A stretch of DNA of 32,433 bases from Leptospiraceae bacterium (GTDB lineage: Bacteria; Spirochaetota; Leptospiria; Leptospirales; Leptonemataceae): positions 1 to 32,433 of the forward strand of contig JAGRNA010000079.1 of assembly GCA_020441005.1 (NCBI GenBank), written 5' to 3'. The notes under the pieces were generated by a model, which was given only the letters and a program-made list of their open reading frames with translations, was not told where the DNA came from and did not search any database. Shown piece by piece: positions 2,779 through 21,795 of the stretch (position 1 is the first letter of the stretch; the number at the start of each line of letters is the position of its first letter). Position numbers and translations under genes: made by a program.

Positions 2779-3406
2779 ACACCTGGTATGGATTGTCTCC
2801 ATGCTGCTGCTACAGCAATGCGCTGTATTACAATCCGTGCAAGGACCCGTCATGCGGATCCTGCGCAAGGGCTCCTGCGTGGCGATTGATCTGCCAGCGA
2901 TTACGCTGACCCCGGCCCGCACAGCAGCGGAGCGCCAGCTGGTGGGCGAGGATGTACAGCTAGAAAGGGATGGCTGGCTGGTGGCCTCCGCTCATAGCTT
3001 GCGGCCGCTGACCGAAACAATCGGCGATTCCCGGGACAACGCCAGCGAAGGCAACAAGGCCGGGATTGTGCGTCGCTATTATATTGAACTGGGTGTGCTG
3101 GATTTTTATGAGCCGGCTTTGCGCCATTATCGGGAAAGCGGGCTTTTGGGGGAGGCGTACAATGGCCTGGTCATGACTGTACCGGTTGGCTTGCTAGAAT
3201 CCGCGCGCCGGCAGGCACTACTGGACGAACGTTCAGCGGCCATCCAGGTGGCCAATGCTGTCAATCAGGCGCGGCGCTGGCTGGCAGAATTCCAACAGCA
3301 AAAATCTGACATCCAGGCGAATTACGCTTCCGGTCAGGAGTATCGCGAAGCCTTGCCGGGTGAGTGGATTTACACCAACGAAGAGCGATGGGTCCGGGTT
3401 AAATAA
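2759..3406 (+). CDS. Lipoprotein with C-terminal YdbL-like (DUF1318) domain
   Basis: I chose the ATG at 2759 because it follows an AGGA at 2747-2750 and begins a lipoprotein signal peptide: a K-containing start, a hydrophobic core, then LLLQQC with Cys21. The product is 215 residues. Residues 45-75 hold a T-A-A-E-R-Q-L-V-G-E segment followed by E-R-D-G-W, which I recall from spirochaetal DUF1318 lipoproteins. Residues 122-215 resemble E. coli YdbL: G-L-L-G-E-x-x-x-G-L, then an N-A-V-N-Q-A-R helix, and finally P-G-E-W-I-Y-T-N-E-E-R-W-V. In E. coli, YdbL and the small lipoprotein YnbE sit beside the AsmA-like YdbH and support its bridging function. Here one protein carries both a lipid anchor and the YdbL-like part. 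The stop codon shares a base with the next start (TAATG), so the three genes are probably translated as one unit. Confidence 0.75.
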   Translation: MKAISSKHLVWIVSMLLLQQCAVLQSVQGPVMRILRKGSCVAIDLPAITLTPARTAAERQLVGEDVQLERDGWLVASAHSLRPLTETIGDSRDNASEGNKAGIVRRYYIELGVLDFYEPALRHYRESGLLGEAYNGLVMTVPVGLLESARRQALLDERSAAIQVANAVNQARRWLAEFQQQKSDIQANYASGQEYREALPGEWIYTNEERWVRVK

Positions 3407-6400
3407 TGACGATCCGGCCCACAGACTTTATAGCGGACCGGGTCGAGCCAGGCCCGGTGATCTACTCCCGCCAGCATCCGCACAAAGAGCACCCGATCGC
3501 GGTCGCTCAGCCGGGGGGACGCTATGCCGCCGGGCTAAAAGCACTCTGCTGGCCAATGCTGCTGTACGTGCTGATGAGCCTGCCGGGCTGTCAGGAGGCC
3601 CAGCTGATCCGGCCACCCGAGTATGACTATGCCAGCCTGGCCGATCAATTCTTCAAAACACGCCTGAAAGAGCACTTTCCCCTGACGGTGCAGCGCGGTG
3701 CCAATCTGCATCCGGTCAGCACGCAAAACGGGTATTTGTTTTTTACCGCCAATAAAAGCGGCTCTGGCGATATATGGATGCGCAGTCTGCAAAACAGTAT
3801 TTCCATGCCAGTGATTCAGCATCCGGCGGAGCAACACCAGCCGGCCCTGTCAGCCCAGGGTGAGCTTCTGGTATATGTATCCGAAGACCGCGATTCCGAG
3901 GGCGATCTGATGTTGACACCCCTGTCCCCGGACGACATGGTCCAAAACGCGTTACGCGGTTTGCCTCCGGTCAATTTTTGGGATGATAGCATCAATCTGT
4001 CCCTGGCGATTGAGAAACTGGCCCAGTCCTTGCCGGCCGCCTGCCAGGGGACGGCCAGCGAACGCGAACCGGTTTTAGCGCGTGACGGCCGCTATTTGAT
4101 TTTTAACAGCGATCGTTGCCAGGACGGCCAAAGCAACATCTGGCTGCTGGAGCTGGATGCAGACGCCAATCCAGTGCAGTTGCGCCAGGTAACGACTGCC
4201 GGCGCCTACCAGGCTAGTCTGGGAGCCAATCAGAAACAGATTTATTTTATGTCTAGACGCGACAATTACAAGGGCGGTCGCATCTATCAACTGGACCTGA
4301 CGGAGGTGCTGGCATCCGGGAGTTCGTTGCCGCCGTCCAAAGACCAGGCGCGTTTGATTCAACTGGATTACAGTCGCTTGCGGCAGTTGATTGCCTTTCC
4401 TTCTGTCAGCAGCGATGGTCGGTTTTTGATTTATCATCGGATTGACCAGGACAGCAATTACAACGGGTATCTGGATCTGGATGACGCTGGTTCCGTTTTC
4501 AAGGTTGCTTTGGGCCGTACTCCGGATGGCCAAATTCGGACTAGCAAGGCGCAGCGCTTGACCGGCAACCCCCTGGGAATTCTCTCTGTCATTTGGTCCG
4601 ATTTTGCGGGCGGATCCATTCTGTATGCCAGCCGCATGTTCAATCATGTGAATATTTATTTTGTACGGGCTGACGGGATCATCCCGCGTCAACCAGGCAT
4701 CGAACAACAATATCAACTCACACGCGTTTACCTGAACCAGGCGCCGGAGCGCTACCTTTTGGCTCTGGATGCGGTGTACGATTTTTTCGGCGAACAGGAT
4801 GCATGGGAGCTGTACGAGGGCCGCGTTTTGCTCGATCGGCTGGACTTTTTTATCAAGAACGGTCAAGGCGACCAGGTTGACCTGACCCGTCGGCAGTTGA
4901 ACGAGGCGGCTCGCTACAATGCCTATGTGCAGCTGGAACAGGATTTGCTGGGCCAAAAAACAAGTCGCGTCATTCAATTATTAAAAGAATTTATTGATAC
5001 CCAAAGCAGGACTAACTCCGGCGGGACTGATACGAATATGGGCATTTTGCAAGCCGGTGCCATGTTCCGACTGGCTGGTATCCATGCGCGCCAGTCAAAT
5101 TACAGTGCGTCCCTCGGACTGTTAACCAGGCTGAATCAAAACCGGGTGAATTTTTTTCGACGCACAGAAGCGCTGCTTTTGGAAGCGGAGGCCCGTAGTG
5201 CGACTAGCGGTCGCATTGATCCCCTATTTGTAACCTTGTTGAATGATGCCGCCATTCCTCCCGGGATGCAGGACCAGGTCCACGCGCAGGTCTATCGCTG
5301 GTTTGGTCGGCCGGCCGAAAAAAGCGCGCGCCGTCAATTACTGGATCAAAACCAGGATAGGGCGGGGCAGCATCCCTTGCTTTTGGCCACCTGGCGCCTG
5401 GCAAAAGCTGCATTGGAATTTGAAGAAGCCAGGGCCCAAAATGCCCTGGCTTTGACCGATCAAATCCTGGCGGCAGTGCCCGTGGAGCCTTATCGCAATC
5501 GGACCCGGCCGTTACTTGCCTGGAACGGCCTGTTTGTTCGCACCTGGCAGCTGCGCGAGCGTATGGCCGAAGCGCGGGGAGACTTTGGGGAGGCCTATTT
5601 TGCCCGCATTTCCTATGGTGGATCGTATTATGAGGGCAGCAGCGCCGAGCTAAAGGTTTCCGTTTTTGAACGTATGGTACAGGAATCCGAAGATCATATC
5701 GGCACCTACGTGCATTCAGCCCGGGAACTGGCAGGGCTTGCGGCTGATCATGAGGAGTTGCAGATTAGCAAGGGTTTGCTGGATAAAGGTTTGAGCGTTC
5801 TGGAGCAAGATAGCGTGCGCATCAGTAGCAACAGCCTCGACGTGTTGCAAGAGTTCTGTCAGAATGGTTCGCGCAACAATCGGCTGTTTTTTTCTCTCGG
5901 CGGCAGTCACCTGAAAAGCTATCAGGATTTTTGCGCTAATCAGACAAAAGAAGCTGTCTCCTTGCCCGGAGCCACTTTGGCGCTCAGTCGTGTCAAGCAA
6001 GCGTCCAGTTTGTTGTATACGGTCGCTTATGCCAATGCCAGCATGCTCAACCTGCTTTTCTTTAATATGAATCAAAGCAGTATCTTTAGCGATTTGTACA
6101 GGCGCAAGGCCTATCAAATTCACAAGCTGAAAATTGATCTCGCCAAAGAAAAGCAGCAAATCGAAACGGAGCGGGCCCAAAAACGCTTTTTCCTGCCTGG
6201 CCAGGAAGAAGCCCTGCAACTTTTAACCGAATCAGATCCGTTTTTGTCCGAGACTTATGATGAACTTGCCTATGGATATGATTTGACCAGAGCTGAAAAT
6301 GTGCAGGTGGGCGATATGTCTATGTGGTATGGGCACGCCTATTTATTGGTTACCCGGGCCATGGAGCGGGAGCGCTACTACGATCAATTCCAGGCCAACG

Positions 6401-9400
6401 GCGGTCAGCTTTCGACAGAATTTCTGCGCAAGGCCAAGGAAGAAATTCTGATCGATCTAAAGAATGCAGAGTATTTCTTAAAATACATTATGAATGTGGA
6501 TACCCGCACGACCGAGGCCTATTTGCTATTGGGCTGGATGTACCAATACCTTGATCAACGCCAGGATCGGGTTTTACCCCTGGAATCCGGATATCTGGAA
6601 CAACTCTTTGCCTGGGCAACCAATACGGAGCAGCAGGTCCTGGATGGGCTATTGTATCGGGACTATTATCAGGCCTGGTTTAATATTCGGTTTTATGAAG
6701 AAAACGTGGAGTTGTACCGCCAATTACTGGAGACTCGCAGTAAGGAGCAACTAGGTCGGCAGGCCCTGGCGGCAGTTCACTTGAACCTGGCAAATAATTA
6801 CTTTCGCCTGCTAAGTTTTTCCCGGGCGATCGAGCACTACCAGGAACTGGAGACGCTGGTGGCTGCAGCCGAGACTGATCTTTTTGAAAGCTACCAGCAG
6901 CGAGCCCTGTTTTATGTGAATTATGGTCGCGCCAATTTCTTTGAGAATCGTTCCGCTACAGCGGCCGTATTGATGCAAAAAGCCGCTCAGATCTACCATG
7001 TAATGGAGCTGGATCCGGTCCAATCGCGTCTGAAAACACTGGAGTTTCAATTGGCTGACCAGAACGCGGATACCTATGAAACCAATATGCTCAAATTGCG
7101 TCGCGAGCAGTTAGGTCGGCGTTTGCAGGCCACCCGCTCCCGTCTGGCACTAATTGCCGCTTTGCGGGGACTTGCCCTGTGGGACGCCGGCCGTTACCAG
7201 GAGTCGGTGATTGATTACCGCCAGGCATTGGATGATTTGTTTGGCGACGACGCCATCGAAACCAGTCATGGGATGAACCAGGCGGCCTTGCTGAATTTTC
7301 TGGCCATGGCCCGCCAGGGTGCCGGCCAGTACAATCAATCGATCGAGGTTGCCGCAGAGGCCGCTCGCCTGGCACGTGATCAGCAAATGATCCATCCGGA
7401 AGAACGCTACCTGCCAAATACAATTGGCGGCAAGATGCTGGGTTGCATTCTCGATTATGGCGAAGATTTCAGCGTGATCGGCGAGGGGCGCAATCCCTAT
7501 GGCTTTTCCCCGCTACGTCAATATGAACTATCTCTGGGCATTCGTTTTCAAAGCCTTGTCTTACAAGGCGACCTGGATGGCGCTGCTTATATCCTCCGGC
7601 AGCGGGGTCAGGTTTTTGGCAGCCTGGACGCCAAACGCAAGCAAGGGCAAAGCGGACTGATTCATGTTCTCAATCAAAGCGGTGCCCAGGCCTATCAGGC
7701 ATCCGATTTTACTGCTGCCATTGAGAGCTTTGGCGCGGCGCGTGACAAGGCCTTCCAGACGGCCGATATCGACGGATTCCGCCGGAATTATCAAAATATG
7801 ATGCATACAGCCTTTGCCCGGATTGAGCACCAGCTGTACGATCGTTCGCAATCGGGCATCAGCCCGGCGGATCAAATTGCGGACTGGTTGGCTGAATCTG
7901 TGGAATTTCGCCAGCAGTTGCGCGAAAAGATTGAGCAAGACTACATTACTGACATGCAGACGGAATACCCGGACTATGAATATGACGCCGAAGCCGAGCG
8001 CGGCGTAATTGATCAGCTGATGCTGCAAAACGCGAGCGAATTACGGGAAATTGAATTGATGCTGCTTTTCTACCAGGCCTTGTTAGAAAAACGGCATGCG
8101 CGCAATGCCGCAGATTTGCAGCAGGCCATGGCCAGTCTGCGCCAAACCCAGCTGGAATACGGTCGTATCGTGAACGCCCAGGTCCAATCACAATCAGAGT
8201 TGCGCCATCCGCGCCAGTTTCGCCTGAAGTTGAATCTGGCCCGCATGGCCCTGGCGGCAGCCAATTACCAGGGTGCCATGCAGATTCAAAGAGAAATAGC
8301 AGAGAGCAGTTATGAGTTTAATCTGATTACCGAGTCTTTTTTCGCCAGCGTGCTCAAAGCCGAGATACTGTATGATCAATCCTTGTACCAGCCTGATCAG
8401 GCAACTGCCGCTGAAATCGCTCAAAGCCTGCTGCACGCCCGTCAAATTTTGATAGATCGTCCGGAGGTCTTTGACGAGTTGCGTTCCAGGCTGGAACCCT
8501 TTTTTCAATTAGCCATCGAGTTTTTTAATGCGCGTCGGGATCACCAACAGACCATCAGTTTCCTGGAGCTGGAATGGGAATCGCGGCTGCAGGTGGAATA
8601 CTTCCGCTACCCCCTGGTTTTCGCGGATCAGGCCGTGCAGGTTCTTTACGATCAGATTCGATCGAAAAGGCGTCAACTGTTGCAGTTGGACCATGATGAA
8701 GCCGCCTTGCGCGTTGCGCGCCAGTCGGTCAACCGGATTGTGCAGCAAAAAGCCTTGTTGCGGGTGCAGATCCACACACAAACAGCTGCTTTGCTTGAGA
8801 CAGCCCCCCTGCATGAGCCCTTTGTGCGTCCGCGCAGCATTGCATCGGTAGAGCCCCTGCCTGTTCCAACTGGTAAAGTAGCCCTGCGTTATTATTACTC
8901 CGCCGGACGGCTGCATCAATGGTGTTTGCGGGGAAAATCGATTCAATACCGTCCGCTAGCCTGGTCACAACCCAACCCGGCTCTTTTAGCACAGGCCATG
9001 CAGACTTGCAGTAGCGCCTATCCAAAGGATCAGTTCTTTATTATTCCGGACCATTTCGTTGATCTAAAACTGTATCAACAGGCATGGTCGGCGCATGATT
9101 CCCGGGCCCGCCGACCACTGGTCTTTGTGAACCGGGGGAGCGACCTCTTTCAGGGCTTTGTACGCACGGATACAGATATCCAAAGCAGCTATCTTAATCT
9201 TTTCAATGTCCAACAGATGCGACCGGCCACCGAGGCTATGCAAAAGCCAGGCGATGTGCAGGCTGTCTCCATTGACCTGTCACAAAATCGGCCTTTGTTT
9301 ATTCAGGGTACGAATCGCCCCTTTGATCCCCGTCATTGGCTGACCCAGGAGCAATTCACGGCACTGGTGTACATAGACGAGCGCAACCGGCCAGCTCTGG

Positions 9401-12018
9401 CGCTACGCCAGAAAATGCTGTATGAGTTTTTTCGTTTAAACGGTACTGCCACCGTTTTGTATTCCAATCAGGACTGGTCTGCTATGCAGCCGCAACTTGC
9501 AGCCAGCCTGGGGCGGACTACCCTCGATACCAAACAGGGCATTGTTTTTGGCGCGGCCGGATTCAATGCAGATCAACTGCATCTGACGCTCAAGGCGCGC
9601 TCGATTGCCAGGATGCTGGTCGGTGAGGCCCTGGAACACAAAGGGCAGTATATGCAGGCGTTGCGCTATTACCAACTGGCGGAATCCTATCAACAGGCAA
9701 TCGATCAGACAAAAACAGTACTAAATTTTCGCAATAAATTGAATCTATTGCGCCTGCAGCTAAAGTTGATGATCGACGAGGATCGTGATGTCTTGATTGA
9801 AACTGCGCTGGCCAGTGTCCCGGCCCAGACAGTCTATCAGGCTCCCATATATAGCACTGCGGCCAATGCCTTGACAGAGTTGGCGGATTACGAAGCGGCT
9901 CGTAAATACCAGCAAAAGTACGCTCAATTGCTTCCCGATCAGGTGGATCGCCTGGAAGGGGATATGCAAGGTATCATCTTTTTGCAATCCTTACAGGCAA
10001 CGCGCGGTTTTGGTTTGCCTGGGCGGATCGGCGATCTAGAGCAATTATTCCAGCGTCTGTTGCCGGACTTTATTCGCCAGAACCAGACAGACCAGCTTTT
10101 TAGACTGCTGTGGAAACATGGCTTTGATGGTTTGATCCAGATCCAAAAAGCAGCCCAAAAGGAACAATGGCAAGATGGCGGTAGCCTGCAAGACGAATGG
10201 CAGCAGTATCGCCTGGACCAGATCCTGTTAGACACCAGCCACAAACCAGGCTCGGCAGATTATGAGCAATTGAACCAGGCTTTAGCGCCCGAAACAACAG
10301 ATCGCTGGGAAGTCAGGCAGTTTCGAACTCTGTTGCAGCGCGAGTGGCAAAAAGCAAGGCAGCAGCAGGCCCTGGACTGGTCCATGCTCGGTGATCGGCC
10401 ACTCGAAGAGAATCAGAGTCTCTTTGCCCGCCTGGATCTATTGGAACAAGCGATTCTGTTTCGACTTTATGTGGAACAAATTCCGGTTGATGAGGATCTA
10501 AATGCTTTAAATTCTTTGGAATACCTGATACAGTTTGTAGCCCGACACTCCTCTGTGAACCGGGCCAGCCGCATGGCCCTCGAGGTATCCCGGGTCTATT
10601 TGCAGCTGCAGGATCTGGACGCAGCCTGGCGTTTTTGCGCCCTGCAATACCAGCTACAGCCCAATTATCCCGATGCGCCGGATTTCATCGGCTTGAAAGA
10701 ATGGGTTTTGCCTGCGCTCATCCATCTGGACACTGCAGGGAGTGCGGGATCTGACTGGGCTCATTTAAAAACAATGCCGGCTTTCCAGGGCCCCTATGCG
10801 CGGCTGATGCAAAGCATCCCGGGCACCTTTCATGCCAGCGAATTGCAAGGCTTTGGGGCGGCAATCGCTGGCTATAATCAAAGGGACGCGCGACCCTGGC
10901 CGGCAAGCCACAGCATAGACCTGGCCTTGCAGCTGGCCAAACGCAAGGCCATTGATCGCAAGGACTGGTTTATGACGCTGGACCTGGATATTTGGGCCTG
11001 GCAGTTGCATCAGGAAAGATCGCTGCAAGGCACGTCCCGGGCAGCCTTTCTTCCTCGCGCGCGGGAATTGTTGCAAGCCGTCCCCCCCGGCCAGCTTTTT
11101 TACAGTATAGTGGAAGACTCGCGGGCCAGCTGGCGCTTTCTCTGGAAAGATAATAAATTACAAGTAAACCGCTTTTCGGATTTTGATCGCCGTTTGCAGG
11201 CCAGTATGCGCTTGTATTTGCAGAATAAAAACCGGCCTGACCCGGCCCGCTGGCGCGGTTTAACCGATGCGTTTCGACAGGTGCTGGGACCCCAAACCGG
11301 CAAGGTTGCCTATTTTTGGAGCAATAGCATCTTTGCCTGGCTGCCCATGCGCTATGCCAATCAAGATCGATTGCTGCAAGTCCTGAGTCCGATTGCCTTG
11401 TTGGAAGAGAGTCGCGCGGGCAATCAGTTGGAACCCTCCGCGTTTCAATCCGGCGCCAACAGGGCGGTGCGCCTGATGGACCGCCTGGATCCAAAAATAG
11501 AACCGGTATCGGCGTGCCCCTTTGACGTGGACGATCCCGATGATGCGTTCATACGCGATCGCCTGGGCGGGATGGAGGCCTGGCTCTTGCATGCGAGCCG
11601 GGCTGCAAGCGGTGAGGAGGCCTGGATCGGGCACCTGGTGCCGGATCTAAACTCATGCGATCTGCAAAAAATTCGCTTGTCGGCAAAAGAAAGCCGACAT
11701 GGTCCCTTGTTTGTATCGCGCCTGGAATTGCCGGCGGAATGGTCGGACACGGAACAATTTTATAAAGGACTATATGATTGGCTGGCTTTGCAGGAAGTTC
11801 CCTGGGCGGTGATCAATTTACGCCTGCCCGATCAGCTGGGGCATGCACGATTTGTGCAGCGCTTTTATGACCAAACCCTGGCACTGACCCCTGTAGATCG
11901 GCGCTTCATATTGGCATGGCAATCGCTTGAAAATTATCAGGCGAGTCAGGGGGCGCCTAGTGGAAGCTATCGTCTGGTGACCCGGCTTTTTTTGCATCTA
12001 GAGCAGCCGGAGCGCTAA
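3406..12018 (+). CDS. Giant lipoprotein: TolB-like propeller, TPR-like arrays, two degenerate CHAT-like modules
   Basis: A single uninterrupted frame of 2870 residues. The ATG overlaps the preceding stop codon. A hydrophobic segment ends in SLPGC with Cys62, a lipobox after an unusually long 45-residue lead, so a later start is possible. Residues about 100-370 contain four or five PD40/TolB-like blades (phrases such as F-T-A-N-K-S-G-S-G-D-I-W and F-N-S-D-R). Residues about 470-1810 and 2060-2550 are helical with TPR-like pairs, for example Y-x-x-A-L-R-Y-Y-Q-L-A. Residues about 1822-2045 and 2562-2855 each read like a CHAT (caspase-like) domain: a T-G-K-V or S-I-V-E opening strand, then I-I-P-D-H or W-S-N-S-I-F-A-W-L-P-M, and an ending like the CHAT G-A-x-x-V-x-x-x-W strand. 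Neither has a clear HG plus SAC dyad, so both look non-catalytic. I infer an envelope scaffold working with the two upstream genes; its true function is unknown to me. Confidence 0.8.
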   Translation: MTIRPTDFIADRVEPGPVIYSRQHPHKEHPIAVAQPGGRYAAGLKALCWPMLLYVLMSLPGCQEAQLIRPPEYDYASLADQFFKTRLKEHFPLTVQRGANLHPVSTQNGYLFFTANKSGSGDIWMRSLQNSISMPVIQHPAEQHQPALSAQGELLVYVSEDRDSEGDLMLTPLSPDDMVQNALRGLPPVNFWDDSINLSLAIEKLAQSLPAACQGTASEREPVLARDGRYLIFNSDRCQDGQSNIWLLELDADANPVQLRQVTTAGAYQASLGANQKQIYFMSRRDNYKGGRIYQLDLTEVLASGSSLPPSKDQARLIQLDYSRLRQLIAFPSVSSDGRFLIYHRIDQDSNYNGYLDLDDAGSVFKVALGRTPDGQIRTSKAQRLTGNPLGILSVIWSDFAGGSILYASRMFNHVNIYFVRADGIIPRQPGIEQQYQLTRVYLNQAPERYLLALDAVYDFFGEQDAWELYEGRVLLDRLDFFIKNGQGDQVDLTRRQLNEAARYNAYVQLEQDLLGQKTSRVIQLLKEFIDTQSRTNSGGTDTNMGILQAGAMFRLAGIHARQSNYSASLGLLTRLNQNRVNFFRRTEALLLEAEARSATSGRIDPLFVTLLNDAAIPPGMQDQVHAQVYRWFGRPAEKSARRQLLDQNQDRAGQHPLLLATWRLAKAALEFEEARAQNALALTDQILAAVPVEPYRNRTRPLLAWNGLFVRTWQLRERMAEARGDFGEAYFARISYGGSYYEGSSAELKVSVFERMVQESEDHIGTYVHSARELAGLAADHEELQISKGLLDKGLSVLEQDSVRISSNSLDVLQEFCQNGSRNNRLFFSLGGSHLKSYQDFCANQTKEAVSLPGATLALSRVKQASSLLYTVAYANASMLNLLFFNMNQSSIFSDLYRRKAYQIHKLKIDLAKEKQQIETERAQKRFFLPGQEEALQLLTESDPFLSETYDELAYGYDLTRAENVQVGDMSMWYGHAYLLVTRAMERERYYDQFQANGGQLSTEFLRKAKEEILIDLKNAEYFLKYIMNVDTRTTEAYLLLGWMYQYLDQRQDRVLPLESGYLEQLFAWATNTEQQVLDGLLYRDYYQAWFNIRFYEENVELYRQLLETRSKEQLGRQALAAVHLNLANNYFRLLSFSRAIEHYQELETLVAAAETDLFESYQQRALFYVNYGRANFFENRSATAAVLMQKAAQIYHVMELDPVQSRLKTLEFQLADQNADTYETNMLKLRREQLGRRLQATRSRLALIAALRGLALWDAGRYQESVIDYRQALDDLFGDDAIETSHGMNQAALLNFLAMARQGAGQYNQSIEVAAEAARLARDQQMIHPEERYLPNTIGGKMLGCILDYGEDFSVIGEGRNPYGFSPLRQYELSLGIRFQSLVLQGDLDGAAYILRQRGQVFGSLDAKRKQGQSGLIHVLNQSGAQAYQASDFTAAIESFGAARDKAFQTADIDGFRRNYQNMMHTAFARIEHQLYDRSQSGISPADQIADWLAESVEFRQQLREKIEQDYITDMQTEYPDYEYDAEAERGVIDQLMLQNASELREIELMLLFYQALLEKRHARNAADLQQAMASLRQTQLEYGRIVNAQVQSQSELRHPRQFRLKLNLARMALAAANYQGAMQIQREIAESSYEFNLITESFFASVLKAEILYDQSLYQPDQATAAEIAQSLLHARQILIDRPEVFDELRSRLEPFFQLAIEFFNARRDHQQTISFLELEWESRLQVEYFRYPLVFADQAVQVLYDQIRSKRRQLLQLDHDEAALRVARQSVNRIVQQKALLRVQIHTQTAALLETAPLHEPFVRPRSIASVEPLPVPTGKVALRYYYSAGRLHQWCLRGKSIQYRPLAWSQPNPALLAQAMQTCSSAYPKDQFFIIPDHFVDLKLYQQAWSAHDSRARRPLVFVNRGSDLFQGFVRTDTDIQSSYLNLFNVQQMRPATEAMQKPGDVQAVSIDLSQNRPLFIQGTNRPFDPRHWLTQEQFTALVYIDERNRPALALRQKMLYEFFRLNGTATVLYSNQDWSAMQPQLAASLGRTTLDTKQGIVFGAAGFNADQLHLTLKARSIARMLVGEALEHKGQYMQALRYYQLAESYQQAIDQTKTVLNFRNKLNLLRLQLKLMIDEDRDVLIETALASVPAQTVYQAPIYSTAANALTELADYEAARKYQQKYAQLLPDQVDRLEGDMQGIIFLQSLQATRGFGLPGRIGDLEQLFQRLLPDFIRQNQTDQLFRLLWKHGFDGLIQIQKAAQKEQWQDGGSLQDEWQQYRLDQILLDTSHKPGSADYEQLNQALAPETTDRWEVRQFRTLLQREWQKARQQQALDWSMLGDRPLEENQSLFARLDLLEQAILFRLYVEQIPVDEDLNALNSLEYLIQFVARHSSVNRASRMALEVSRVYLQLQDLDAAWRFCALQYQLQPNYPDAPDFIGLKEWVLPALIHLDTAGSAGSDWAHLKTMPAFQGPYARLMQSIPGTFHASELQGFGAAIAGYNQRDARPWPASHSIDLALQLAKRKAIDRKDWFMTLDLDIWAWQLHQERSLQGTSRAAFLPRARELLQAVPPGQLFYSIVEDSRASWRFLWKDNKLQVNRFSDFDRRLQASMRLYLQNKNRPDPARWRGLTDAFRQVLGPQTGKVAYFWSNSIFAWLPMRYANQDRLLQVLSPIALLEESRAGNQLEPSAFQSGANRAVRLMDRLDPKIEPVSACPFDVDDPDDAFIRDRLGGMEAWLLHASRAASGEEAWIGHLVPDLNSCDLQKIRLSAKESRHGPLFVSRLELPAEWSDTEQFYKGLYDWLALQEVPWAVINLRLPDQLGHARFVQRFYDQTLALTPVDRRFILAWQSLENYQASQGAPSGSYRLVTRLFLHLEQPER

Positions 12019-16506: not shown

Positions 16507-17394
16507 TCAATCCTTGTCCGTCAAACTGGCCGTCCGTCTATCTCTGGCCTTATGGCGCAAGTGGTGGCGATGGTGCCAATAGTACAAACCAAAAGAGATT
16601 GCTCCGGTGAGTACGAGGATCAGACTGCTGGTCGGCAAATGCAGGGTTTCGGGTCCGTTGTTGATTTCCAGAAAAGAAAACCCGAAGGCTAGCGTGGTGG
16701 CGCCGATACTGATTAGTGCCGCCAGCAGCATGGCGCGCGGGACGCTGCGCGCGAGGGGGATGGCCGCCAGGGCCGGTACGATTAAATGGGTCATACTGAC
16801 AAACATGCCCGTCATCTGAATGGACCATATGAGCAGCGGCCCTAACAGCAAGAAAAAAAGCGTATTCAGCCACTCGACTGGCAGACCGGCAACGCGCGCA
16901 TACTCACTATCGGTGCTTTGCAACAAAAGTGCTGGATAGCTGAAAAACAGGACCGCAGCCGCAGCCGTACCAAGCAAGACACTCGGGATGATGTCGTCGG
17001 GTGCGGTTGTCAAGACATCGCCGAACCATGCCTGGACAAAATGCATCCGTACGTGCAGGGCGGCTGCAATCAGTTCGGAAAGACCGGCATAGACCAGCAT
17101 ACCGCCTAGTAAAACGACCTCACTGTTACGGCTGCGCAGTGAATAGCGATAAAAGGGCCAGGCGAGCAAGAGGCCAATCGGCCAGGCTAAAAAATGCTGT
17201 CCCCACATAGCGCTTTGAAATACTCCCTGACTGATAATACTGGCACTGACCGCAGCCTGTGATGCGACCAGACTGAATGTAACCTGCCGTCGCATTGCCA
17301 GCCAGATGCCGGCCGCCGCCATCAGAGCGGCCAATAAAGCGGCCTGCGCAATTTGCCACTCATAAAATAACAGACTCTCAAGTATTGCGTTCAT
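16507..17394 (-). CDS. znuB: Metal (zinc/manganese) ABC transporter permease, ZnuB type
   Basis: Inner-membrane channel subunit of an ABC importer of the ABC-3 family (ZnuB/MntB/TroC). The 295 residues are strongly hydrophobic with eight or nine predicted membrane segments. The family features are present: an N-terminal segment ending in A-M-R-R-Q-V-T-F-S-L-V-A; a central G-D-V-L-T (residues about 126-130); and M-T-H-L-I-V-P-A-L-A-A in the region that contacts the ATPase. The C-terminal tail is charged and His-rich (H-H-R-H-H-L-R-H), which is common in zinc permeases. The start overlaps the znuC stop by 4 bp (ATGA). Zinc is favoured over manganese because of the His-rich neighbours, but metal choice cannot be read from the sequence. 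Confidence 0.92.
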   Translation of the reverse strand: MNAILESLLFYEWQIAQAALLAALMAAAGIWLAMRRQVTFSLVASQAAVSASIISQGVFQSAMWGQHFLAWPIGLLLAWPFYRYSLRSRNSEVVLLGGMLVYAGLSELIAAALHVRMHFVQAWFGDVLTTAPDDIIPSVLLGTAAAAVLFFSYPALLLQSTDSEYARVAGLPVEWLNTLFFLLLGPLLIWSIQMTGMFVSMTHLIVPALAAIPLARSVPRAMLLAALISIGATTLAFGFSFLEINNGPETLHLPTSSLILVLTGAISFGLYYWHHRHHLRHKARDRRTASLTDKD

Positions 17395-18083
17395 GGCTGC
17401 TTTGGTTCCTTTAGCACATGATCGGTCCCGACCGCTAGCGTGCGGCCCCGTAAATCTTGCGTTATGCGCTGGTCATGGGTGCTGAGCAGAACAGCGCAAT
17501 TTCGGGCCAAAGTGCGCTGTAACAAGCGATTCAACTTGATCGTGTTTTTTTGATCCAGACTGGCGCTCGGCTCATCCAGAATCAAAAGGTCCGGACAACT
17601 ATAAAGAGCGCGAGCGATCAAGGCCCGCTGATACTGTCCGGCAGACAGGGCGGCGATGCGCTGGCGGGCCAGGGCTTGCAAATCCAGATCCGCCAGGCAT
17701 TGCCCCAGCCAGTCCGAATCGGGGTTTCGGTGCAGGCGATCTTTTTGAAAGACGTGCGCTTGCACCTTGCCCAGGCGCACAAAATCGGCGACTGTCAACG
17801 GCAAATCGGCGGCATGTCCCTGGCGTTGGGGCACATAAGCCAGTTGTTTACAATGCCAGACGATTTGACCCTGCAGCGGCGGCCGAATCCTTGCCAGGCA
17901 ATGCATCAGGGTGCTCTTGCCGCTGCCATTGGCGCCGGCCAGCACAATACACTGGCCGTAGGGCAAGGTCAATTGTTCCACGGTGATGGCTGGTCGTCCC
18001 TGGTAGCCGACTGCCAGGTCGCGACATTCCAATGCTGCCTTGTCTTCGGCTATGCTGGTCGCTTGTATCGAAGTTCGGCCCAT
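17391..18083 (-). CDS. znuC: Metal ABC transporter ATP-binding subunit, ZnuC type
   Basis: The cytoplasmic ATPase that powers the ZnuB channel. The 230 residues hold a Walker A G-A-N-G-S-G-K-S at 50-57, a Q-loop glutamine near residue 86 (V-P-Q-R), the signature L-S-A-G-Q at 146-150, a Walker B L-L-I-L-D-E-P at 166-172, and the switch His203 in S-T-H-D-Q. All catalytic elements are intact. The signature is LSAGQ rather than the commoner LSGGQ, a change seen in many active ATPases. The start shares a base with the znuA stop (TAATG at 18081-18085), and the end overlaps znuB by 4 bp. The three subunits are therefore tightly coupled. A 20-residue N-terminal lead precedes the domain. Confidence 0.95.
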   Translation of the reverse strand: MGRTSIQATSIAEDKAALECRDLAVGYQGRPAITVEQLTLPYGQCIVLAGANGSGKSTLMHCLARIRPPLQGQIVWHCKQLAYVPQRQGHAADLPLTVADFVRLGKVQAHVFQKDRLHRNPDSDWLGQCLADLDLQALARQRIAALSAGQYQRALIARALYSCPDLLILDEPSASLDQKNTIKLNRLLQRTLARNCAVLLSTHDQRITQDLRGRTLAVGTDHVLKEPKQP

Positions 18084-19132
18084 TATTCTCTATTGATTTG
18101 ACGCGTTGCAACGGCGCCATTCACATCGGCAGCATCGCGTAATTTCTTTGCGATCAGCCGGATTAAATCCTCGTACGTGTTGATTCCTTCAGCGGGGTTG
18201 ACACTATCCGGCAGCACCAGCACCTGGGCACCGCTGAGGCGGGCGACGGTGTCGGCGTACGAACGACGATGATAGGGGGTCACAAGGATGATCCGGATCC
18301 GGGACTGCTTGATTTGCTCGCTGACCTTTTTGAGCCAGGCGGCCGAAGGCGGGATACCTGGTATCTCTTCTATGCTGGCCGCCTCTTTGAATCCGAGGCG
18401 GTTGGCTACATATGTGAATTCCTTGTGATACACTGCCACCGGCAGTTCGCGCAGGTTCGCGGATTTACGAATCTCGGTGGTTATCAGATCGCGCAGGCTG
18501 AGAGCCAGTTCCTGGTAACTTTTTTTGTAATAGTCGGCATTCGCGGGGTCGAGTCGAATCAAACTGCGGCCAATATTACGGGCAGCGATGGCCGCATTCA
18601 CCGGGTCCAGCAGATAGTGCGGATTGCCAAAAGCGTGCACGTCGCCTTGCTTGCGTGAAATCTGTTCCGTGGGCTTTTCGAGTACGTGGATACCGATGCT
18701 AGCGTCGCAGTAGCCCGGTTTGCCGCGTTGGATGGCCGCGTTGCGTGAACGCTTCTGGATCAAGGGCGCCCAGCCAACCTCCAGCTCCAGTCCGTTTTCA
18801 ATAAAAAGATCGGCGCGATTGACTGCGATAATATAATCGGGCCGGGCATCCTGGTAGTGCAAGTCTACGTCCGGTGGCATGAGCGAATGTACTTGCACAT
18901 GCTCGCCGCCAATTCGTTCGGCCAGGTGAGCCAGGTTGACATTCGTGGTCACCACTCGCAGTTTCGTTTGACTGGCCAACTGCAACGGGAAAGCCGCTAG
19001 AAAGAGTAGCAAAGCCACTCTGGTAATTTTGCCAAAGCGTGCGCAGCCTGGAGTGGAGTCGGATCGTTGTTTAATCGGAGTCTCCGCCGGAGGGTAGACC
19101 GGCCGTGCCTGGTAATTAGATTCTGTATTCAT
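18083..19132 (-). CDS. znuA: Periplasmic metal-binding protein, ZnuA type
   Basis: Solute-binding protein of the cluster A-I metal family that hands zinc or manganese to ZnuBC. The 349 residues include a long N-terminal lead, a signal peptide with core at about 38-52, and mature protein starting near Gln55. Metal-site counterparts visible are His92 (V-D-L-H-Y), His172 (G-N-P-H-Y-L-L-D-P, the usual D-P-H-x-W-L-D-P with changes) and His236 (V-Y-H-K-E-F). The fourth ligand, usually Glu or Asp, is not clear; His288 and Asp309 are candidates. No long His/Asp-rich loop of the E. coli ZnuA kind is present. AAGGAG lies about 14 bases before the ATG, farther than ideal, so the true start may differ. 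A 60-bp gap separates it from the barrel gene upstream. Confidence 0.9.
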   Translation of the reverse strand: MNTESNYQARPVYPPAETPIKQRSDSTPGCARFGKITRVALLLFLAAFPLQLASQTKLRVVTTNVNLAHLAERIGGEHVQVHSLMPPDVDLHYQDARPDYIIAVNRADLFIENGLELEVGWAPLIQKRSRNAAIQRGKPGYCDASIGIHVLEKPTEQISRKQGDVHAFGNPHYLLDPVNAAIAARNIGRSLIRLDPANADYYKKSYQELALSLRDLITTEIRKSANLRELPVAVYHKEFTYVANRLGFKEAASIEEIPGIPPSAAWLKKVSEQIKQSRIRIILVTPYHRRSYADTVARLSGAQVLVLPDSVNPAEGINTYEDLIRLIAKKLRDAADVNGAVATRQINRE

Positions 19133-19192
19133 GTTTCTGTGTATTACTCCTTTGCTTGTGTCGGCGTATATCAGTTCACCATGCGTTCCGGT

Positions 19193-20539
19193 TTAATACG
19201 AATGCGCCGGATGCATGCCGATGATAAAAGTCCCCTGTAGAAAGAATTGATAGGTGTTTTTACCCGTCTCAATAGTGGTGTTCCTTTGGGCCGTGGCTCG
19301 GAAGTAACTGAACTCGGACGGACGCCAGGTGAGCTGCAACATATTACCGGCATGGCCGTTTTCTTTTTGTTTAATACCATCTTCATTGATATAGTTCGGG
19401 TTTGTGTAAAAGTCATAGCGATACCCTGCCGACCATTGACGATGAAACTGAAACTCAAGCAGGCTGTACACCCCGACCCGGGTTTCGACCGGGGTGGCCG
19501 CCGGATCGTAGGGTCGTTCATTTTTTTCGCGTGTTTCACGGTACCAAACCTCGGTTTGAAATATGAGTGAGCGATGCACGTCTGGCTTCCATTTTAAAAA
19601 CCAGTCCAGTCCGCTTTGATGCATGACTTTGTGCGGTTCCACACTCGGGTGGTAGCGCAGATAACTGAAACCGAACTGCGTACCCCAGGCATTGTTAAAG
19701 CCAATAAACTGCTTCAGGTGCGCTGTGTAGAGCGGGTTATTCTTGTTGTCACCATCATTATGGGTATGTCCAAAAGTACGCCCGTTAAAGGCCCCCACTG
19801 TTAGCTCCTGCACGAAGCTTTGCCAGGGCCATGGGATCAGGTAGCTGAGTTCCAGGCCGCTGTCTTCGGCTCCTTCTTCATCCAACATTTCTTCGTGGAC
19901 TTCAGGTGCGACGCTAAACAGCCAATCGTGGCGGTGTATCGTGTTTAGACGGCCCACGTCCAGAAAAAACTGCCCGACTCTGGCGCTTAGATTCGGGATT
20001 GGTGTACTCGGAATATAGAAATAAGCCTCGTGCAGCTCAAAAACAGTCTCCCCGGCTTCCTGATGGGCGGCGGCCATTACCGTGCCTTCGGCGATGTGAT
20101 CTATATCGGCCATGAAGCCAAATTCGACCTCACGGGCGTCAAAGCGGTTGCCGGTGGTGTGCGGTTCATCGTTATCCCATTGGCCTAAAAAATCCGCTGC
20201 GGCCATGATATCCAGGCTGTAGCTACGGCCGCTTTGATCGTTAAACTGTAGCAGGCTTTGGGTAGTCTGGCCGCTTGAAATAGCATTCACCTGGCGATCT
20301 GCTGCCGCCGGGTCCTGATCAGTATCCAGGCTGTCTTCTGACAAATCATCCGGAATCAGATTGGCGGGATCATTACCGGCTGGCTGTTGCGGATTGGTCG
20401 GGGATTTTTGCGTGCTATCAGGACTGTCGGGGTTTTGCTGGGCCGCTAGCGGTACTGTCATTGCAAAGCTCACTAGACAAATAGTAAAGAGGCCCAGCCA
20501 GGGACCTCTTCGTATTGCGTTGTTCATAAGCGAGCTCAT
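19193..20539 (-). CDS. Outer-membrane beta-barrel (porin-like), probable metal uptake
   Basis: The 448-residue product has a signal peptide (core about 15-30, cleavage near L-A-A-Q-Q at 31-35). A Pro/Asp/Gln-rich linker runs to about residue 85. After that come alternating aromatic beta strands ending in a C-terminal aromatic residue (H-S-Y), as in outer-membrane barrels. No TonB box or plug is visible. Predicted loops contain I-H-R-H-D-W, V-H-E-E and G-H-T-H-N-D-G-D, rich in His and acids. The gene stands directly before znuACB, so I infer a porin that lets zinc or a zinc chelate through the outer membrane. An alternative is a phosphate/anion-type porin unrelated to metals. The start ATG shares a base with the preceding stop (TAATG); a second ATG 12 bases on is also possible. 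Confidence 0.8.
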   Translation of the reverse strand: MSSLMNNAIRRGPWLGLFTICLVSFAMTVPLAAQQNPDSPDSTQKSPTNPQQPAGNDPANLIPDDLSEDSLDTDQDPAAADRQVNAISSGQTTQSLLQFNDQSGRSYSLDIMAAADFLGQWDNDEPHTTGNRFDAREVEFGFMADIDHIAEGTVMAAAHQEAGETVFELHEAYFYIPSTPIPNLSARVGQFFLDVGRLNTIHRHDWLFSVAPEVHEEMLDEEGAEDSGLELSYLIPWPWQSFVQELTVGAFNGRTFGHTHNDGDNKNNPLYTAHLKQFIGFNNAWGTQFGFSYLRYHPSVEPHKVMHQSGLDWFLKWKPDVHRSLIFQTEVWYRETREKNERPYDPAATPVETRVGVYSLLEFQFHRQWSAGYRYDFYTNPNYINEDGIKQKENGHAGNMLQLTWRPSEFSYFRATAQRNTTIETGKNTYQFFLQGTFIIGMHPAHSY

Positions 20540-21204
20540 TAGTCGGTGAAAATTGCGCTGCTATAGACGGTGACATTGGTAACGCTTGCGTTATTCAGTA
20601 CGAAACCCCAGGCACCGCCGCTGGTTTCACGGGTTGTACCACCACCTTCCGCATCCGCTTTCGCTGAACTGGCCGCTTTGCTGGTACAAGTGGTATTGTC
20701 AAAGACCAGGTGGTCCGGGTTTTCACCAAAGTGCGCTTCAAAACACCAGGTTTGGGTCGTATTACCGGGGACCGTGCTGGTATTTGTACTGGCGGCCCCT
20801 TCGATAGTGGTGGCGGTGGGGGTCATCTTGAAGTAATTGGCAGCAGTGCTGTCGGCAACAACAGTGCCGCCGGCCACAAGCTGGATACTGGAATCGGCGG
20901 CTGGTAATTGGAAGGTGACCTGCAATGACAGGCGGTCCGTTTTAGTGCTGAGAGCTGTCAGGGTGCCAGATCCGGTTGCATTGTTGAGGGAACAGCTGAC
21001 CCCGCTGCTGGTAAAGGACGCTCCACCCAGGTTGCACTGACTGTTGTTTAAAAACAATAATGCCAATAGCTCCTCGTTTTGATCAGCTTCATCGTCAGCG
21101 ACCAGACCCAGTTCAGTGCAGTTTTGGCTGAGCAGTAGTGCCGCGGCCATGCTGAGCATAATCGCGCAGCTCTTAAAATGATGATAAAATCGGTTTAAAT
21201 ACAT
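20539..21204 (-). CDS. Lipoprotein of unknown function before the OM barrel gene
   Basis: A 221-residue product with a signal peptide and the lipobox L-L-L-S-Q-N-C (Cys29). Asn at position -1 is not allowed in the E. coli consensus but fits relaxed spirochaetal lipoboxes. The mature part starts with an acidic segment (D-D-E-A-D-Q-N-E-E), then a Ser/Thr/Ala-rich beta-type region with four further Cys (near 57, 70, 153 and 170), which could form disulfides. T-W-C-F-E-A-H-F and an Asn/Thr-rich end are the only distinctive stretches. I do not recognise the family. GAGGA lies five or six bases before the ATG, which supports the start. The stop overlaps the barrel gene start (TAATG), so the two are coupled and the lipoprotein may act with the barrel, for example as a plug or surface partner. 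Confidence 0.8.
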   Translation of the reverse strand: MYLNRFYHHFKSCAIMLSMAAALLLSQNCTELGLVADDEADQNEELLALLFLNNSQCNLGGASFTSSGVSCSLNNATGSGTLTALSTKTDRLSLQVTFQLPAADSSIQLVAGGTVVADSTAANYFKMTPTATTIEGAASTNTSTVPGNTTQTWCFEAHFGENPDHLVFDNTTCTSKAASSAKADAEGGGTTRETSGGAWGFVLNNASVTNVTVYSSAIFTD

Positions 21205-21257
21205 AATTTCCTCGTTTTGTGTGCCGGTTTCGTCCGCAAGCGCCTCATTGCGGGCGC

Positions 21258-21286
21258 TGCATAGGCAAAATTCTGACTAGTGTAAA
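21258..21286 (-). promoter_or_regulatory. Candidate sigma70 promoter for the lipoprotein-barrel-znuACB genes
   Basis: Read on the minus strand, TTTACA (21286-21281) is separated by exactly 17 bases from TATGCA (21263-21258). The -35 matches 5 of 6 consensus bases; the -10 matches only the leading TAT. Transcription would start near 21251, giving a leader of about 47 bases that contains the GAGGA ribosome site. Three inverted repeats lie just upstream. Weak -10, so only a candidate. Confidence 0.3.
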
Positions 21287-21305
21287 CAGTGGCCTCGAGC
21301 CAATG

Positions 21306-21329
21306 CAGGCAGTTTTGACCGACTGCCTG
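21306..21329. repeat. Inverted repeat, 8-bp arms, upstream of metal-uptake genes
   Basis: CAGGCAGT (21306-21313) and ACTGCCTG (21322-21329) are perfect inverted arms around 8 bases. It lies about 20 bp upstream of the candidate -35 for the minus-strand metal-uptake genes. It could be a regulator site or an RNA hairpin after the small His/Cys-rich gene. There is no T-run on either side, so it is not a terminator. Confidence 0.4.
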
Positions 21330-21385
21330 TCAAATAGATGGCTCCGATTCGACAGCGGTTGGCAAACCGCAGCGCCAGGTCATTA

Positions 21386-21401
21386 TTTCGGTCTACCGAA
21401 A
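21386..21401. repeat. Palindrome TTTCGGT-CT-ACCGAAA, operator-like
   Basis: Two perfect 7-bp arms around a 2-bp centre, in the 234-bp gap between the small His/Cys-rich gene and the lipoprotein gene. The compact shape is like a dimeric repressor site. A further 6-bp-arm repeat, GCGGTT/AACCGC, lies at 21355-21370. No match to a known Zur or Fur box is evident to me. Confidence 0.35.
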
Positions 21402-21438
21402 CCATAACTGTCGGCAGGTTAGAAGTAATACTGGCTGT

Positions 21439-21795
21439 CTAGGCGAAGCGAGCCGCGGGCGGGCCGCGGGCGTAGTAGCTGTGAAAGGAATCGTGTGAAT
21501 AATGTGCAGTGTCGGGTAGTTCAATTTGCCGGGCAGCAATATCGATCCGATGCGTATGGGCCGCGGATTGCACCGCATGGACAGACGGACTGTGGATGGC
21601 ACACCAGTAACAATCGGTATGGTTCTTGAGCGAGTCCAGGGCCGCTGATTTGTGTGCAGCACAGTGCTCAAGGGTCTCTTGATGACTGCTGCAATCCCGC
21701 TGCAGGGCATGGGCAAACATGTGCAGGCTGGTGCTCATTGGAGCAATCAGCATGCCACTCAAGGCGAACAGGGATATCAACGCGCGCCAGCTCAT
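21439..21795 (-). CDS. Small exported His/Cys-rich protein, DUF2946-like
   Basis: A 118-residue product with an N-terminal hydrophobic segment (residues 5-20) suited to export. It contains 13 His and 4 Cys, concentrated between residues 25 and 105. The pattern runs H-M-F-A-H-A, C-S-S-H, H-C-A-A-H, then N-H-T-D-C-Y-W-C-A-I-H-S. A C-x-x-C next to His in a short exported protein resembles DUF2946 proteins, which often lie beside metal-transport or TonB-receptor genes. It likely binds a metal ion in the periplasm or at the membrane. It is the first credible gene of the minus-strand block, 234 bp before the lipoprotein gene, and may belong to the same regulon without being in the same operon. No ribosome-binding site is obvious. 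A TTGACG (-35-like) lies at 21835-21830. The family call is tentative. Confidence 0.6.
   Translation of the reverse strand: MSWRALISLFALSGMLIAPMSTSLHMFAHALQRDCSSHQETLEHCAAHKSAALDSLKNHTDCYWCAIHSPSVHAVQSAAHTHRIDIAARQIELPDTAHYSHDSFHSYYARGPPAARFA

Follow-up and report, generated by a model that had tools for sequence, protein, structure and literature searches.

How zinc crosses the outer membrane by routes outside TonB-dependent receptors is poorly known, and a block of six genes from a Leptospiraceae bacterium raises the question of whether one operon can encode an entire zinc path, from the outside of the cell to the cytoplasm. The block lies in positions 1 to 32,433 of contig JAGRNA010000079.1 (assembly GCA_020441005.1; "the window" below means this whole stretch of 32,433 nucleotides), in a genome of 4.36 Mb that is 89.9% complete. 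It combines a transporter of the ZnuACB type with an outer-membrane barrel, a lipoprotein and a small His/Cys-rich protein. We consider it probable that the operon encodes a full pathway for zinc import, in which a starvation-induced, TonB-independent and zinc-selective porin would feed the periplasmic protein ZnuA, the lipoprotein serving as a zinc-handling accessory. A more specific proposal, which we regard as evenly balanced, is that Leptospira-like spirochaetes and Bdellovibrio-like bacteria possess an undescribed TonB-independent outer-membrane zinc importer, whose selectivity would come from a His cluster in a constriction loop and whose partner would be a zinc lipoprotein of lectin fold. 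The elements, in order of coordinates, are:

16507-17394, minus strand: znuB, encoding the permease ZnuB (PF00950)
17391-18083, minus strand: znuC, encoding the ATPase ZnuC (PF00005; the best NCBIfam model is AztA, below its cut-off)
18083-19132, minus strand: znuA, encoding the periplasmic metal-binding protein ZnuA (PF01297, E 1e-48; zinc-type ligands H92, H172 and H236)
19193-20539, minus strand: barrel of 448 residues, the proposed zinc-selective porin (AlphaFold2, Foldseek, alignment of 52 sequences)
19868-19963, minus strand: residues 193-224 of the barrel, linking strands 5 and 6, with H202, H204, H215, D205 and E222 (AlphaFold2 element positions, conservation)
20539-21204, minus strand: lipoprotein of 221 residues, lipidated Cys C29 (alignment of 34 sequences, structure model, Foldseek)
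20710-20733, minus strand: codons of HFGENPDH, the invariant His pair of the lipoprotein (H158-x6-H165; alignment and sequence)
21439-21795, minus strand: His/Cys-rich protein of 118 residues (13 His, 4 Cys; N-terminal hydrophobic segment; C-x2-C; C-terminal RGPP tail)

The six open reading frames that the initial annotation had placed here, ZnuACB among them, were all located on the minus strand, and Pfam models recognise a ZnuA-family binding protein, an ABC-3 permease and an ATPase within one operon. Transcription runs from the His/Cys-rich protein through the lipoprotein, the barrel, ZnuA, ZnuC and ZnuB to coaE. The TAATG said to couple lipoprotein and barrel can be seen in the sequence, as an overlap of the lipoprotein stop with the barrel start, and the znuA stop and znuC start overlap likewise.

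Coupling of the barrel to ZnuA

Besides the window, 52 distinct barrel loci were surveyed: 33 sites in whole genomes from the class (Leptospiria) and 19 named loci in metagenome-assembled genomes (MAGs), the latter mostly from Oligoflexales, Bacteriovoracaceae and Halobacteriovoraceae, with L086 and L088 being near-duplicates. A single-protein scan of contigs returned no loci, and a scan with an alignment of conserved motifs returned 34, about half of them contigs of the whole-genome set. The neighbourhood search ties the barrel to the zinc path, as had been supposed: instead of being linked to other substrates, barrel homologues are directly followed on the same strand by znuA at 48 of the 49 loci whose following gene can be seen.

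Presence in genomes tells the same story. In the full set of 48 Leptospiria genomes, the barrel and a ZnuA-family protein are both present in 32 and both absent from 12, three have only the ZnuA-family protein and one has only the barrel, on a contig that ends inside the barrel gene (Fisher p 8e-8); among 30 near-complete genomes the two occur together in 23 and are both missing from seven, with no mixed case (Fisher p 5e-7), although shared ancestry inflates the significance of both tests. Locus-bearing relatives include MAGs of Leptospiraceae, Leptospirales and Turneriella parva; the genus Leptospira was not among the barrel hits of our search, whose patterns were narrow. Since barrel relatives occur in 33 of the 48 genomes as well as in Bdellovibrio-like MAGs, and 52 sequences retain the His motifs, the locus is more than a chance arrangement. 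Furthermore, distances between barrels correlate with those between ZnuAs (r 0.85, to which shared species history contributes) and the Bdellovibrio-like barrels form one clade, so that barrel and ZnuA are an old unit, mostly inherited together.

The binding protein is of the zinc type. In barrel-linked ZnuAs H92 and H172 are found in 48 of 48 sequences and H236 in 44 of 48, which makes up a three-His site, whereas the third ligand position is Glu in the manganese protein MntA; judged by these residues, the linked ZnuAs carry the ligands that zinc proteins do. The family-model matches and this site are what the operon shares with ZnuABC and AztABC, the cluster A-I ATP-binding cassette (ABC) transporters. 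Those act at the inner membrane, whereas the operon here adds an outer-membrane barrel and usually a lipoprotein; scores against the NCBIfam equivalog models of AztABCD stay below cut-off (157 of 220 bits for AztA, 48 of 280 for AztB and 96 of 350 for AztC). The same genomes also contain second ZnuA-family systems (L106, L108, L110 and L111), which lack a barrel and share 23-26% identity with the window ZnuA; it follows that one ZnuA lineage alone is coupled to the barrel. One of them, at L106:5813-8326, is a distant ZnuA/ZnuB/ZnuC-type set in the same genome, its ZnuA 23% identical, without barrel or lipoprotein.

Fold and conserved residues of the barrel

The barrel had been described as lacking a plug and any TonB-receptor character, and structure prediction of the barrel alone bears this out. 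An AlphaFold2 model built from 26 aligned sequences has 16 strands over residues 110-441, mostly with a predicted local distance difference test score (pLDDT) above 90, preceded by a disordered N-terminal linker (residues 28-106) and containing no plug domain; family models of a plug or TonB-receptor domain likewise matched neither the window barrel nor any of 25 homologues. Such a plug-less porin fold fits TonB independence. We considered the barrel as a TonB receptor and ruled this out on the missing plug and the porin fold.

The model has 16 antiparallel strands and a long loop that joins strand 5 to strand 6; it is a porin by fold, and its nearest Foldseek matches are 16-stranded porins (chitoporin VhChiP, E 1.4e-12; DcaP, OprP/OprO, OmpU and PorB). 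Sequence methods place it less easily: the window barrel has no Pfam or NCBIfam family match, and no solved structure was related to barrel or lipoprotein by sequence or sequence profile. Compared with the alignment, BBP2 (PF07642) matched 7 of 26 members at E up to 0.1 (best 3.5e-6), the window protein not among them. A match to FlhC (E 0.008, residues 300-330), found in one sequence only, was dismissed as chance.

Conservation was counted over 52 sequences from two phyla with low overall identity. The longest conserved non-strand segment is residues 193-224, between strands 5 and 6, where H202 is kept in 52 of 52, H204 in 51, E222 in 45, D205 in 44 and H215 in 37. Elsewhere, H159 (50 of 52), H258 (49) and H260 (44) stand out, as do the C-terminal H443 and H446, present in all 50 sequences that reach them, and the invariant acidic residues D116, D147, E171, D312 and E330. 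Porins carry a constriction loop, L3, between strands 5 and 6, and by analogy segment 193-224 probably folds into the pore as an L3-like constriction. The His/acid-rich loops of the initial annotation, HRHDW (residues 202-206) and GHTHNDGD (residues 257-264), are thus present and conserved, but the best-placed candidates for metal binding are the segment at the L3 position and the C-terminus, rather than outer loops alone. OprP/OprO, DcaP and chitoporin share the predicted fold and a conserved strands 5-6 segment at this position; identity to them is about 10%, however, and the selective residues here would be His and acidic ones, not the arginine ladder of OprP.

The lipoprotein and the His/Cys-rich protein

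The lipoprotein has 17% mean identity in an alignment of 34 sequences, in which just three columns are invariant, the lipobox Cys (C29) and two histidines, H158 and H165; a relative at L072, outside the 34, has lost the first of these. In the model (pLDDT 81) H158 ends one strand and H165 begins the next, within a concanavalin A (ConA)-like beta-sandwich or jelly roll nearest to CBM66 by Foldseek, and no Pfam or NCBIfam family matches the window protein or its homologues. The invariant pair suggests a surface or periplasmic zinc-handling protein, a putative partner of the barrel. Its proposed role, zinc binding and transfer to a solute-binding protein, resembles that of the periplasmic zinc chaperone AztD (PMC6689063), from which it differs in its predicted ConA-like jelly roll, its lipidation and the missing family match.

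The 118-residue protein, said to head the block, does have 13 His and 4 Cys, but 234 bp lie between its gene and that of the lipoprotein, and no more than 14 barrel loci, counting the window, have a recognisable version, a small His-containing protein with a [GA]R[AGSD]PP-like C-terminal tail and, in most cases, C-x2-C. DUF2946 is the nearest Pfam model, below cut-off (12.1 bits, E 0.35, where gathering requires 23.7 bits; best homologue E 0.006). It is an optional part of the system, less universal than the lipoprotein. Of the proposed lipoprotein-barrel module, therefore, the linkage of the barrel stands and the lipoprotein proves frequent but not universal; as neither accessory is universal, the core unit is the barrel with ZnuACB.

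Other His-containing proteins occur at related loci. A second secreted-looking protein of about 200 residues lies just before the lipoprotein in Bdellovibrio-like loci (L084:7609-8241, L080:7545-8156, L083:7707-8297 and L082:3952-4632); the one from L084 has no Pfam match. Lipoprotein-like, probably helical proteins with regularly spaced His (EEHEKLEETHQKMEEAH) adjoin the barrel at L047:5824-6294 and L062:6660-7208, and are possible zinc buffers.

Proposed zinc control and mechanism, and rival explanations

Fur-family regulators adjoin several loci (e.g. L047, L060, L079, L081 and L084), and cobW-type COG0523 GTPases adjoin L033, L047, L079 and L086; according to a review of Zur regulons, COG0523 proteins are common members of these (PMC6103462). 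A palindrome, TGCAA-N5-TTGCA, occurs as 9 exact sites upstream of the loci, where 0.7 are expected from the surrounding loci. In core and spacing it agrees with ATGCAACnnnGTTGCAT, a predicted Desulfovibrio Zur box (PMC545781), and this independent match is a stronger point than the count. Genes for Fur, COG0523 and MerC-like proteins have the palindrome in front of them too, as do two lipoprotein genes of Leptospiraceae; other clades have different palindromes upstream. Judging from these Zur-like boxes in relatives, the operon would respond to zinc limitation. MerC-like membrane proteins lie beside Fur-family genes at L084:6607-7035 (PF03203; with a Zur-like box) and L079:1926-2318 (recognised by eye), and may belong to the zinc regulon of Bdellovibrio-like bacteria. 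At L083:5509-7617 a secreted-looking, Gly/His-containing protein of 702 residues has TGCAA-N5-TTGCA 81 bases upstream.

Under zinc starvation, if relatives are a guide, a Zur-type repressor would release the operon. Zn(II) would then be drawn through the His/acid-lined constriction of the barrel, formed by the strands 5-6 segment (H202, H204, H215, D205 and E222). If the presumed topology is right, H258 and H260 would sit in an outer loop and the HPAH of the C-terminus would face the periplasm. The three-His site of ZnuA would bind the ion and ZnuBC would pump it inward with ATP, while the lipoprotein, a ConA-like sandwich with its invariant His pair, may capture or relay zinc beside the pore and the small His-rich protein may act as an optional buffer.

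Several observations weigh against this picture. The window itself has no convincing Zur box, its one near match (21690-21704) lying inside the His-rich gene. The TGCAA-N5-TTGCA pattern was noticed among palindromes before it was counted, which leaves its excess upstream of the loci suggestive. At L042 (genome G023) barrel and znuACB are on different contigs, and at some loci (e.g. L093 and L095-L097) no lipoprotein gene lies directly upstream of the barrel. The genome also has three TonB-receptor barrels, so zinc may also be taken up in a TonB-dependent way, and homology cannot tell free zinc from a chelate.

One may therefore consider alternative explanations. The barrel could be an ordinary, low-selectivity porin, co-expressed with ZnuABC to raise permeability under zinc starvation, its histidines being structural. 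Its general 16-stranded porin fold would agree with this, and mycobacteria offer a parallel in MspD, an unrelated type of porin that is under Zur regulation and plays an accessory part (PMC13098993); oprD, too, is listed in Zur regulons, and is the only porin named in the available text of the review mentioned above, which describes TonB-dependent receptors (PMC6103462). Against it stand the His and acidic residues that hardly vary over two phyla, despite low overall identity, in the segment at the L3 position, in an outer loop and at the C-terminus, together with the strict coupling to ZnuA; we think this explanation unlikely. TonB-independent siderophore receptors also exist (PMC5378763), and the barrel may take up a zinc chelate or siderophore-like complex as LbtU does legiobactin, with the lectin-like lipoprotein binding either this chelate or a glycan at the surface. 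The LbtU siderophore porin model (NF033652) gives a weak match to one barrel homologue (E 2.7e-4, short of its cut-off) and the lipoprotein model resembles carbohydrate-binding modules, but the window barrel has no LbtU match, the conserved ligands of barrel, lipoprotein and ZnuA suit a bare ion, and the flanks that were read, whose genes were not systematically annotated, showed no recognisable genes for making a chelator. This we consider improbable. A different divalent metal as cargo (manganese, iron or cobalt, for example) seems very improbable indeed: binding proteins of cluster A-I serve Zn, Mn and Fe systems alike, and the window ZnuA matches several manganese proteins in the PDB, but the third ligand is the His of 44 of 48 ZnuAs and not the Glu of MntA, and COG0523 genes and Zur-like boxes flank the loci.

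A zinc-selective porin feeding ZnuA would share with ZnuD-type TonB-dependent receptors (PMC4557270) the role of bringing zinc across the outer membrane under limitation; ZnuD, however, is a plugged TonB receptor without sequence match to the plug-less 16-stranded barrel. LbtU of Legionella and FslE/FupA of Francisella take up metal through an outer-membrane barrel without TonB-receptor architecture (FupA being predicted to have 16 strands; PMC5378763), but these handle iron or siderophores rather than zinc, have no or negligible sequence similarity to the barrel and are not linked to ZnuA. In the literature searched we found no described system combining such a barrel and lipoprotein with ZnuACB, and no published outer-membrane zinc entry system for leptospire-like spirochaetes, for which the proposed route, if true, would account. 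The hypothesis names conserved residues in two phyla and could be checked with a handful of mutants.

Two further features of the window may be mentioned. Two short palindromes, GCGGTTTGCCAACCGC and TTTCGGTAGACCGAAA on the minus strand, lie in the stretch that separates the His-rich gene from the lipoprotein gene (21205-21438). Away from the operon, positions 3406-12018 encode a protein of 2870 residues that seemingly starts with beta-propeller-like repeats and continues with TPR-like repeats.

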